Below, in pieces: positions 11,568 through 40,735 of a stretch of DNA of 64,000 bases (the stretch's first letter is position 1; the number at the start of each line of letters is the position of its first letter). The stretch spans positions 558,001 to 622,000 of the forward strand of contig NC_012785.1 of NCBI RefSeq assembly GCF_000023325.1, in the 5' to 3' direction. The notes beneath the pieces are model-generated. The model did no database searches. It saw only the letters and a list, made by a program, of their open reading frames with translations, and was not told the DNA's origin. The DNA comes from Kosmotoga olearia TBF 19.5.1. GTDB taxonomy: Bacteria > Thermotogota > Thermotogae > Petrotogales > Kosmotogaceae. Both the position numbers and the translations under genes were made by a program.

Positions 11568-11699
11568 GTTCTCGCCAACTCCTTACCTCAAAATCCCATT
11601 TAAACAAGAGACACAAATAATCTGCCACTACGCATTATAACTAAGATCAAGTTCAGGATGACAATTCAAGAAGACAAAGATCGGGTCTAGGGACTGGAG

Positions 11700-11940
11700 A
11701 AAGTTACGTACAACGTACAACCCACACCAACAACGGGGTTCATCTGCGTCTGCAAGCCTCAGCCTTCGAACGCCGCGTCACCAACTGCCAGCCTTGCAAG
11801 TGTCTGATATTTTTTCAACTGTGAAGCAGTTTGCCCCAACTCCCAAGGAGTTCGTAACAACCACGAAGTGGTTCGGGTCAACTCCGCAGGAGTTCGTGAC
11901 AATCCCGAAGGGATTCTTGTCGCTGCGAAGCAGCTCTTTC
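11700..11940. repeat. Composite repeat ending in a 21-bp-period palindrome array
   Basis: The gap 11568-11956 has no gene. It carries an ACAAC-rich motif (about 11708-11735), a block shared with other gaps (TTCGAACG, CTTGCAAG), then six inverted repeats starting at 11817, 11838, 11859, 11880, 11901 and 11922, exactly 21 bp apart. Arms include AACTCC/GGAGTT, AACCAC/GTGGTT, AATCCC/GGGATT and GCTGC/GCAGC, most around GAA or GCA. It lies just downstream of the broken subtilase gene. Confidence 0.9.
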
Positions 11941-11956
11941 GGACTTTCAATTTTAT

Positions 11957-15599: not shown

Positions 15600-15876
15600 C
15601 ATACGGCGATAAAACCGTTGTCGGTTGTGGGTTGTACGTAAGAATCGAGAGTCCAAGAGCGTTAGAGGTATAGAGAGACCCACGCAGATCCTGACCCAAG
15701 TTCAGGATGACCGGCTTTATTTTCGAAACGTGTTTAATGATTTTCGCTTTTTTGGTTCTATCCGCCGAAGGCGCTTGTCAACTGCACAGCAGTTCATAAC
15801 AACCACGAAGTGGTTCGAAACAACTCCGCAGGAGTTCGTACCAATCCCGAAGGGATTTGTGCCGCTGCGCAGTAGC
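15600..15876 (+). repeat. Composite intergenic repeat with 21-bp palindrome array
   Basis: No gene lies between galA and the IS. The stretch shares its order of modules, in reverse orientation, with 40432-40710: a GTTGT-rich end, a TCGAGAGTCCAAG block, an ATCCTGA/TCAGGAT palindrome (about 15690-15713), a TTTTCGAAACGTGTTTAATGA block, then inverted repeats starting at 15780, 15801, 15822, 15843 and 15864, exactly 21 bp apart. The last unit has one arm mismatch. The IS3-type element begins just after it. Confidence 0.88.
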
Positions 15877-17894: not shown

Positions 17895-18688
17895 GCTACG
17901 AAAAAGTACACAGCTTGTTGAAAGAACTGAAACTGGAAGGAATCTCCAGGGTATTGGATTCTTCTCTCCAAAACTGGAGCAAAGGAGATAAAGACGTTCT
18001 CGAATTGATTGAAGAACTACTAATAGCCCAGAAGAAAGAAAACGAGAACAAGAAATACATAACAGCTCTCAGATACAGCGGATTACCTTTCCACAAAACC
18101 CTGGAAGAATTCGATTTCAGTTTCCAACCCAGCATAGACAGAAAACAGGTAATGGAACTGAAGACCCTGAGATTCATGTACGAAAAAGAGAACGTGGTAT
18201 TTCTTGGACCTCCTGGAGTAGGAAAAACACACCTGGCGGTAGGTCTTGGAATGGAAGCCCTAAGGGAAGGAAAGAAAATATACTTCGTTAATGCAATAAC
18301 GTTGGTGGATCGATTAAAGAAAGCCTTTGTTGAGAGACATCTGGAAAAAACCATTAGATTCTACAAATCCCTTGACCTACTAATAATAGATGAACTGGGA
18401 TACCTGCCGCTGGATACAGAGGGAGCGAAGCTGTTTTTTGAACTGGTGAGCCAGAAATACGAGCAGGGAAGCATAATCCTGACATCCAACAGAAGCTTTA
18501 CCGAATGGGACAAGATATTTGAAGACGAAGTATTAGCAACAGCGGTATTGGACAGACTCTTACACCATTGTACGATAGTCAATATTCGTGGAAAAAGTTA
18601 CAGACTGAAAGAAAAACAGAAAACGGGGCTTGTTGGTATACAGACGACGATTGGTAGAACCGACAAACTACGCAAATCTGAGCGATGA
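17891..18688 (+). CDS. istB: IS21 helper ATPase IstB
   Basis: 265-aa AAA+ ATPase related to DnaC that assists IstA in target capture. Walker A is [16 protein letters not shown], Walker B is LLIIDELGYLPLD, and the sensor-1 region is IILTSNRSFTEWDKIF. It is translated from an ATG overlapping the istA stop, so the two are coupled. The gene ends 51 bases before the right end of the element. Confidence 0.95.
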   Translation: MSYEKVHSLLKELKLEGISRVLDSSLQNWSKGDKDVLELIEELLIAQKKENENKKYITALRYSGLPFHKTLEEFDFSFQPSIDRKQVMELKTLRFMYEKENVVFLGPPGVGKTHLAVGLGMEALREGKKIYFVNAITLVDRLKKAFVERHLEKTIRFYKSLDLLIIDELGYLPLDTEGAKLFFELVSQKYEQGSIILTSNRSFTEWDKIFEDEVLATAVLDRLLHHCTIVNIRGKSYRLKEKQKTGLVGIQTTIGRTDKLRKSER

Positions 18689-31622: not shown

Positions 31623-32175
31623 ACTCGTCAAAACCGCATTCAAACCCGGAGATTACCCTGAGCCTGTTAAAAGAGAAGTTGCTTTTGCCGGAAGGTCGAA
31701 CGTCGGGAAATCTACATTGCTAAATACCCTTTTCCAGAGGAAATTAGCACATACAAGTTCCAAACCCGGGAAAACCAGATCTATAAACTTCTATCTGGTC
31801 AATTCAAAGTATTACTTCGTGGACCTTCCAGGTTACGGTTTTGCAAGTGCATCCAAACAAGAACTTGCAAGATGGAAAGAACTGATAGAAGACTATTTTT
31901 CTACCCGTGATAACCTGAACCTTGTCACAATCCTAATGGATTCAAGGCATCCTATGCAGAAAAACGATTACAAAATGCTCGAATGGATAAAAGATTATTC
32001 AATACCTTTTATCGTAGTCTTGACTAAAACCGACAAACTTTCGGGAAACGAATTGAAAAAGATGATCCAGATTTATGAGAAAGAATTAAAGTTATGGGGC
32101 TCACCACCAATCATTCCCTTTTCTGCAAAAACAAGGAGAGGGCTCAACGAACTGTTGAAAATTTTGATACCGTGA
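31603..32175 (+). CDS. engB: EngB/YihA/YsxC ribosome-biogenesis GTPase
   Basis: 190-aa TRAFAC GTPase needed for assembly of the large ribosomal subunit. G1 is FAGRSNVGKSTLLNTL, G3 is YFVDLPGYGFA, G4 is VLTKTDKLSGNE and G5 is IPFSAKTRRGLNELL. It starts inside lon and is the last gene of the glpK-tsaE-lon-engB run; lon-engB adjacency is common in bacteria. Its TGA is followed at once by the first palindrome of a hairpin array. Confidence 0.95.
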   Translation: MLIKKVELVKTAFKPGDYPEPVKREVAFAGRSNVGKSTLLNTLFQRKLAHTSSKPGKTRSINFYLVNSKYYFVDLPGYGFASASKQELARWKELIEDYFSTRDNLNLVTILMDSRHPMQKNDYKMLEWIKDYSIPFIVVLTKTDKLSGNELKKMIQIYEKELKLWGSPPIIPFSAKTRRGLNELLKILIP

Positions 32176-32328
32176 GCCCGGCTACGCCGGGGGTAAGCAC
32201 GATTCCGTCGTGGGTTAGCACGCTGGCGCGTGGGTAAGCTTGGCTGCGCCAAGGGTAAGCCCAGCTGCGCTGGGGGTGCGAACCGCTTCACGGTTGGTAC
32301 GCACCTTCGGTGGAAAAAAACAAAAGCG
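32176..32328 (+). repeat. Array of divergent short palindromes with GGGTAAGC linkers, about 21-bp period
   Basis: Directly after the engB stop come seven short inverted repeats. Unit starts are at 32176, 32197, 32218, 32238 and 32259, then less regular ones at about 32280 and 32301. Arms are CCCGGC/GCCGGG, CACGA/TCGTG, CACGC/GCGTG, CTTGGC/GCCAAG, CCCAGC/GCTGGG, ACCG/CGGT and CACC/GGTG. Linkers are nearly constant (GGGTAAGC or GGGTTAGC), while arms differ in sequence yet stay complementary. Confidence 0.9.
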
Positions 32329-32364: not shown

Positions 32365-32562
32365 ACGCACAACGCACAACGTACAACCAACAACGGCTTT
32401 TATCACTGCACAGCAGTTCGTAACAACCACAAAGTGGTTCGAAACAACTCCGCAGGAGTTCGTGACAATCCCGAAGGGATTCGTATCTGCCGCGCAGCGG
32501 CTCTCTTGATTCTTTCGGGCTCTCGGTTCTCGATTTTTCCGTACAACCTACAACCTATGTTA
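32365..32562. repeat. Composite repeat with second 21-bp palindrome array
   Basis: Holds an ACAAC-rich motif (about 32366-32393), then inverted repeats starting at 32404, 32425, 32446, 32467 and 32489 (arms ACTGC/GCAGT, AACCAC/GTGGTT, AACTCC/GGAGTT, AATCCC/GGGATT, GCCGC/GCGGC; centres 21 bp apart), then CTCGGTTCTCGA and CGTACAACCTACAACC up to the GGDEF gene stop. Nothing coding is seen between engB and that gene. Confidence 0.9.
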
Positions 32563-40409: not shown

Positions 40410-40735
40410 AGAGTCCGAGAGAATCAAAAGAGCCGCTGCGCGGCAGATACGAATCCCTTCGGGATTGTCACGAACTCCTGCAGAGTTGTTTCGAACCACT
40501 TCGTGGTTGTTACGAACTGCTGTGCAGTTGACATGTGCCTTCGGCGGAATAGAACCCAAAAAGCGAATATCATTAAACACGTTTCGAAAATAAATCCGGT
40601 CATCCTGAACTTGTTTCAGGATCTGTAAGGGTCTCTCTATACCTCTAACGCCCTTGGACTCTCGGTTCTCGATTATCACGAACAACCTACAACGCACAAC
40701 CTACAACGTTTCTTGATTTTTAGATCTCGGATTCT
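40410..40735 (-). repeat. Composite intergenic repeat with 21-bp palindrome array (inverse of the 15.6-kb copy)
   Basis: No gene lies in 40199-40760. Inverted repeats centred at 40438, 40459, 40480, 40501 and 40522 are exactly 21 bp apart (arms GCCGC/GCGGC, AATCCC/GGGATT, AACTC/GAGTT, AACCAC/GTGGTT, AACTGC/GCAGTT; loops TGC, TTC, TGT). Then come GCC-TTC-GGC, the TCATTAAACACGTTTCGAAA block, ATCCTGAA...TTCAGGAT, ACTCTCGGTTCTCGA, and ACAACCTACAACG twice. Module order matches 15600-15876 read on the other strand. Confidence 0.9.

Follow-up and report, generated by a model that had tools for sequence, protein, structure and literature searches.

A six-unit palindrome array at 21-bp pitch

The window, by which we mean the whole 64-kb stretch of Kosmotoga olearia DNA analysed here, spans C1:558001-622000 of one 2,302,126-bp contig. 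At 11816-11935 it holds six short palindromes that had been picked out in a sequence-only reading of the same DNA and described there as units with 5-6-bp arms and loops of about 3 nt at a perfect 21-bp step. The sequence and a hairpin scan bear out this description: the stems start at 11817, 11838, 11859, 11880, 11901 and 11922, every step being 21, and the loops are exactly 3 nt in all six units, with a 6-bp stem frame in units 1-5 and a 5-bp stem in unit 6. Because the terminal stem is one pair shorter, the centre-to-centre steps read 21, 21, 21, 21 and 20. The parts of the array, and the other arrays assigned in the window, are as follows.

11816-11935, plus strand: hairpin array of six palindromes at 21-bp pitch, linker dialect A (sequence and hairpin scan)
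11817-11831, plus strand: unit 1, AACTGT-GAA-GCAGTT, 5 of 6 pairs, with a T-G loop-closing pair
11838-11852, plus strand: unit 2, AACTCC-CAA-GGAGTT
11859-11873, plus strand: unit 3, AACCAC-GAA-GTGGTT
11880-11894, plus strand: unit 4, AACTCC-GCA-GGAGTT
11901-11915, plus strand: unit 5, AATCCC-GAA-GGGATT
11922-11942, plus strand: unit 6, the terminal hairpin GCTGC-GAA-GCAGC (5 bp), followed by a degenerate end motif, TCTTTCGG
15779-15876, plus strand: second dialect-A array, last unit degenerate
32176-32296, minus strand: dialect-B array at 21-bp pitch, arms CCCAGC, CTTGGC, CACGC, CACGAC and CCCGGC
32403-32503, plus strand: third dialect-A array
40430-40530, minus strand: fourth dialect-A array

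A generic hairpin-chain scan finds five arrays of at least three units in the window, against 0.03 per 64-kb shuffle. An Rfam scan of the 11816-11935 array matched no family. The end motif that follows its terminal hairpin, TCTTTCGG, reads TCTCGG in the majority of copies. Degenerate short repeats enclose the arrays, at window 11690-11735 and 3' of most arrays, with ACAACNN on one side and, on the other, TCTCGG in which two bases vary; some of these are kept between genera. The linker of the dialect-B array is GGTAAG or similar, and this array directly adjoins the stop codon (window 32173-32176) of a gene resembling a small GTPase.

Fixed unit plan and variable stems

Across 217 oriented units, the forward-strand position profile gives a 21-nt plan consisting of a C, one side of a 6-bp stem, an R-N-A triloop closed by C-G, the other side of the stem, a second C, and four free nucleotides. 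The 5' foot is C in 95% of units, the 3' foot is C in 90%, and the closing pair is C-G in 93%; the loop opens with G (88%) or A (12%), is variable in the middle and ends with A in 99%, making it mostly GNA. None of 175 stems has a seventh pair, and C stands opposite C at that position in 166 of them, so that the stem stops at 6 bp because of a C-C mismatch at its foot.

Within this frame, at least 23 distinct stems form perfect 6-bp helices, and pairing at stem positions 2-5 holds in 97-100% of units compared to 22-45% for most shifted partners. Copies of the array differ by compensatory changes: AACTCC/GGAGTT becomes AACTCT/AGAGTT or AACTCA/TGAGTT, AACTGC/GCAGTT becomes AACCGC/GCGGTT, and in the terminal hairpin GCTGC/GCAGC becomes GCCGC/GCGGC or GTTGC/GCAAC. 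The strongest test of covariation is a three-unit pattern that fixes only the foot C, the loop and the closing letters and demands no stem pairing; it has 119 matches in the genome and 0 with a reversed-pattern control, and among the matches listed the stems are complementary in nearly all. With a two-unit pattern, both stems are fully paired in 91 of 131 matches in the sampled K. olearia sequence. Mismatches within stems comprise 15 G-T and 9 A-C, a difference that is not significant, and these counts do not distinguish selection on DNA from selection on RNA.

Copy number, linker dialects and unit order

Genome-wide figures come from searches and from samples of 464-561 kb. BLAST locates the family-A array in 46 copies, distributed over both strands of the genome. 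In an unbiased 464-kb sample, made up of the window and twenty evenly spaced 20-kb stretches, there are 29 arrays of at least three units, against 0.2 in shuffles, from which we estimate by extrapolation a total of about 140 arrays in the K. olearia genome. Arrays of this size make up about 1% of the sampled sequence. The 21-bp spacing is held elsewhere in the genome, as the sequence-only reading had expected: 61 arrays in 561 kb give 190 steps, with 152 at 21.0, 29 at 20.5 or 21.5 and 8 at 20, and the separation between like hairpins in the sampled sequence is sharp (49 at 21, the remainder mainly at about 42). At G000:C1:97000-100000, 131000-134000 and 257000-272000, several arrays are clustered and linked by a constant segment, GTAAGAATCGAGAGTCCGAGAACCGAGAGGGCC; these clusters resemble larger mosaic amplifications.

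Three linker dialects (CGNNNC, CTTACC-like and CATAGC-like) share the one unit plan. Each array has 2-6 units, head to tail and of one polarity, in a preferred order: AACTGC, AACCAC, AACTCC, AATCCC, GCYGC in dialect A and CACTCC, CCTGAC, CCCAGC, CCACGC, GCYGC in dialect B. All three dialects share an array end, a GCYGC hairpin followed by TCTCGG repeats, and this end together with the preferred unit order gives each array a direction and a terminus. The dialect-A order recurs in dozens of dispersed copies, so that much of the arm variation within an array is inherited. The proposal that self-complementarity is conserved over varying arms, originally drawn from the differing arms of the 11816-11935 array, therefore stands in part: much of the variation in that array itself is inherited, and the independent variation lies in the compensatory changes between copies and in two further arm sets with other linkers and the same pitch. 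The arrays are thus not all near-identical copies. Inheritance of a duplicated 21-nt unit accounts for the pitch just as well as helical phasing by two turns would.

Genomic context and taxonomic range

Gene context was read from a simple codon-model caller run on the sampled sequence, in which genes cover 87%. All 27 testable arrays are intergenic, with neighboring genes in the same orientation as the array in 5 cases, opposite in 6, convergent in 9 and divergent in 7. No replication-strand bias of the arrays is evident by region.

Across 103 Thermotogota genomes, the three-unit pattern matches 119 times in K. olearia (G000), 23 times in G006, 4 times in G004 and 3 times in G002, all of them Kosmotogaceae, to which the arrays within Thermotogota are essentially confined. 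One or two matches each also occur in draft genomes of other Thermotogota families (G042:C46, G056:C136 and G096:C46), possibly through binning contamination or recent transfer. Searches of plasmids, phages and viral contigs yielded no arrays. An exact four-unit pattern was searched in GTDB genomes; among the matches listed and examined there was no true array, with at most 19 of 24 stem pairs formed, and most resembled high-G+C chance sequence or internally repeated sequence.

Group IIC introns inside the arrays

One array copy is interrupted by a group II intron. The K. olearia genome has 14 domain-V matches and 6 reverse transcriptases, and the main intron class is group IIC (Rfam D1D4-3; RF02001, RF00029), with an intron protein whose best match is the GsI-IIC RT (E 1e-87). 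Eleven group IIC introns have kept their 5' end intact, and every one of them lies within a 21-bp array. Since arrays of at least three units cover only about 1% of the sampled sequence, this association is not due to chance. In ten of the 11, the insertion point is exactly where a linker ends and the following unit starts, and in the eleventh it follows a terminal GCTGC hairpin and TTTCTCG; the distance from stem to insertion is 6-7 nt in every case. When the flanks are joined across the intron, the spacing is 21.0 in 5 of 8 measurable joints, 20.5 in one, and about 41-42 in two, where the next unit is imperfect. Arrays of both dialects A and B have been hit, the sole invariant letter across the 11 sites being a G at -1, and in 10 of 11 cases the strand read by the intron is the one with the T-N-C loop, not the GNA strand.

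A DNA hairpin, which group IIC introns are known to need, is a key determinant of where they insert, and in a cryo-EM structure the target is a stem-loop DNA with a short spacer and IBS1 (PMC3898094, PMC10190682). The array stem-loops occupy the corresponding upstream position at all 11 sites. Because these introns recognize DNA hairpins, their placement makes it probable that the units fold into hairpins as DNA, and they may do so in the cell. The introns would then offer an independent in vivo readout of where hairpins are presented.

Mesotoga introns are 83% identical to the K. olearia group IIC introns and lie mostly 3 nt after CGTC REP stems, which number 40 in a 200-kb Mesotoga sample versus 19 in 464 kb of K. 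olearia. Related group IIC introns thus use different palindromes from host to host, in each case an abundant one. Arrays occur without such an intron in the relatives G002, G004 and G006, and Mesotoga has introns and almost no arrays; the arrays are therefore neither produced nor kept up by the intron. In two Mesotoga-like genomes, G009 and G012, loci L355-L373 hold about two dozen near-identical group IIC copies, mostly 3 nt past CGTC-3 REP hairpins.

Relationship to known elements

Like REPs of the GTAG and CGTC super-families, the arrays are short, intergenic, high-copy, strand-polar palindromes whose stems vary with complementarity kept (PMC3733652). REPs are defined by a GTAG/GTGG or CGTC tetranucleotide tag at the hairpin foot (PMC3733652, PMC6006769), whereas the array units have a C at each foot, a linker of four free nucleotides and a 6-bp stem with a triloop, and stand strictly head to tail at 21 bp, a layout that is missing or under-represented among REPs (PMC3733652). 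We considered and rejected an identity with CGTC REPs, which are a different, known element. For K. olearia, Di Nocera 2013 gives CGTC-3 REPs only, and no account of 21-bp arrays was found in its main text (PMC3733652); the RepRanger survey has counts for Mesotoga, without such arrays. BIMEs and REPINs are, like the arrays, intergenic mosaics that combine several palindromes with further short repeats, but they contain alternating or inverted REPs, whereas array units share one orientation, a fixed pitch and a preferred order. The near-identical repeats and unique spacers of a CRISPR are also not seen here, since stems differ and linkers are 6 nt, and the stems are followed by the linkers CGNNNC, CTTACC or CATAGC where an intrinsic terminator, with its G+C-rich hairpin, would have a T-run (by inspection).

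Known group IIC targets, intrinsic terminators and attC sites, resemble the arrays in having a hairpin of free stem sequence, about 6 nt and then the insertion point; the arrays differ in being dispersed, in their 6-bp stems and lack of a T-run, and in offering several equivalent sites per array. At the level of the single unit, the G-N-A triloop closed by C-G is that of the d(C-GNA-G) DNA mini-hairpins, and GCGAAGC is found verbatim in many units. These mini-hairpins, as cited in PMC6479982, were characterized in oligonucleotides (Hirao 1994; Yoshizawa 1997), whereas here the motif recurs across the genome of a thermophile as part of a dispersed repeat. The stability of GNA loops is taken from the literature; the energy model (ViennaRNA with DNA parameters) is insensitive to triloop sequence and gives GNA no bonus. 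The sequence-only reading knew of no named element with this design, and we likewise found no description in the open-licence PMC literature searched. We regard the arrays as a REP/BIME-like dispersed repeat of new design that serves as an intron landing site, although priority is not certain.

Interpretation and alternatives

We consider it likely that the 11816-11935 array belongs to a dispersed, intergenic repeat family of Kosmotogaceae that works through DNA shape, with no fixed stem sequence, and that is used by group IIC introns. Once in single-stranded form, as at a replication fork, the units would fold into mini-hairpins, with the C-C mismatch setting the stem length and the GNA loops perhaps adding stability in a thermophile; a group IIC intron RNP could then dock on the stem of a unit and reverse-splice about 6 nt 3' of it. 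The family itself may persist between genes as a tolerated, non-autonomous repeat of REP/BIME-like type. Most dispersed repeats are recognized by their sequence, and this family differs: the stems vary freely while the loop, the closing pair, the foot mismatch and the pitch stay, a natural covariation argument for a functional family of DNA hairpins. With dozens of natural sites differing only in stem sequence, hairpin recognition by group IIC introns becomes testable. A more ambitious version of this explanation, which we offer tentatively and think less likely to be right than wrong, is that the arrays are a dedicated, shape-coded DNA-hairpin scaffold that folds in single-stranded DNA, is copied by single-stranded DNA or reverse-transcriptase machinery, and has been adopted by group IIC introns as a multi-site safe harbor and their main genomic home.

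Among the alternatives, mobilization of REP-type arrays by the two-copy Y1 (HUH) transposase of the genome, as in RAYT/REP systems, survives best and is nonetheless unlikely. K. olearia has two Y1_Tnp genes, similar to NF047646 REP_Tyr_transpos though below its cut-off, and array remnants lie about 20 bp or less from the stop codon of both. The homologues (82% in G002, 65% in G009, and also in G016 and G006), however, are preceded by an unvarying AATAGGGACAGA terminal repeat and have no adjoining array, which fits the TIRYT class with GGGGWSAS repeats (PMC3733652); because they keep only this GGGACAG repeat and no arrays, the Y1 transposase, although a candidate, is probably not the partner of the arrays. 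Furthermore, Mesotoga has several Y1 genes and zero three-unit arrays, and the array units are without a GTAG/GTGG foot.

Somewhat less probable still is a neutral origin, in which arms without a function stay complementary through tandem duplication and palindrome-correcting mutagenesis (template switching in quasi-palindromes). The correction of quasi-palindromes is a known type of mutation that would mimic covariation, and the arrays have clearly multiplied by copying, with a preferred order of units. Such correction should close the C-C mismatch at the foot as well, yet 0 of 175 stems reach 7 bp, and the loop holds R first and A third while its middle varies and the closing pair stays C-G.

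A strand-specific RNA element, either a hairpin chain in 3' UTRs or a small RNA that stabilizes or terminates transcripts, appears improbable. The stems are predicted to fold as RNA also, and convergent gene pairs are somewhat over-represented (9 of 27 arrays). Against this, and against the earlier suggestion of an RNA hairpin chain, the arrays lie in both orientations relative to their neighbor genes, the excess of G-U over A-C (15 versus 9) is not significant, no T-run follows the hairpins on inspection, and Rfam has no match.

Protein dimers bound in a row to duplex DNA, all on the same side of the helix, were also suggested in the sequence-only reading and are very hard to reconcile with the data. 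Such a row would suit a 21-bp repeat, which is two turns of B-DNA, and the pitch of 21.0 in 152 of 190 steps. But base-specific dimers would keep the arms constant, and the arms are the free part of the unit; a symmetric dimer would not need the asymmetry of the conserved loop, R-N-A on one strand; most deviations in pitch (20.5, 21.5 and 20) stem from a changed loop or stem length; and group IIC insertion points to hairpins. Finally, seven-residue peptide repeats, for which 21 nt would be seven codons and short ORFs do cross the 11816-11935 array on both strands, can be dismissed, as several frames are open with no conserved start, linkers may carry stops, and steps of 20 or 22 nt break the frame in other copies.

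Other mobile elements in the genome

A decayed 95-bp 5' group IIC fragment at G000:C1:1376512-1376606 is the one exception to the association, lying outside any array. The 7 group IIC introns in the half of the genome between 1.05 and 1.95 Mb all have plus-strand orientation, which would be expected of insertion that follows the direction of replication. Another group II class, with a domain V just below the Rfam cut-off, has three copies that are not obviously array-associated (G000:C1:82018-82087, 87979-88048 and 1522404-1522473). The two K. olearia Y1 genes, at G000:C1:1341659-1342348 (L082) and 1355258-1355947 (L081), belong to the TIRYT kind and have AATAGGGACAGA terminal repeats, and the Y1 reading frame contains a GGGGACA...TCCCC palindrome. 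Within the window, an IS end at 18665 agrees with published K. olearia IS ends (PMC5398504).
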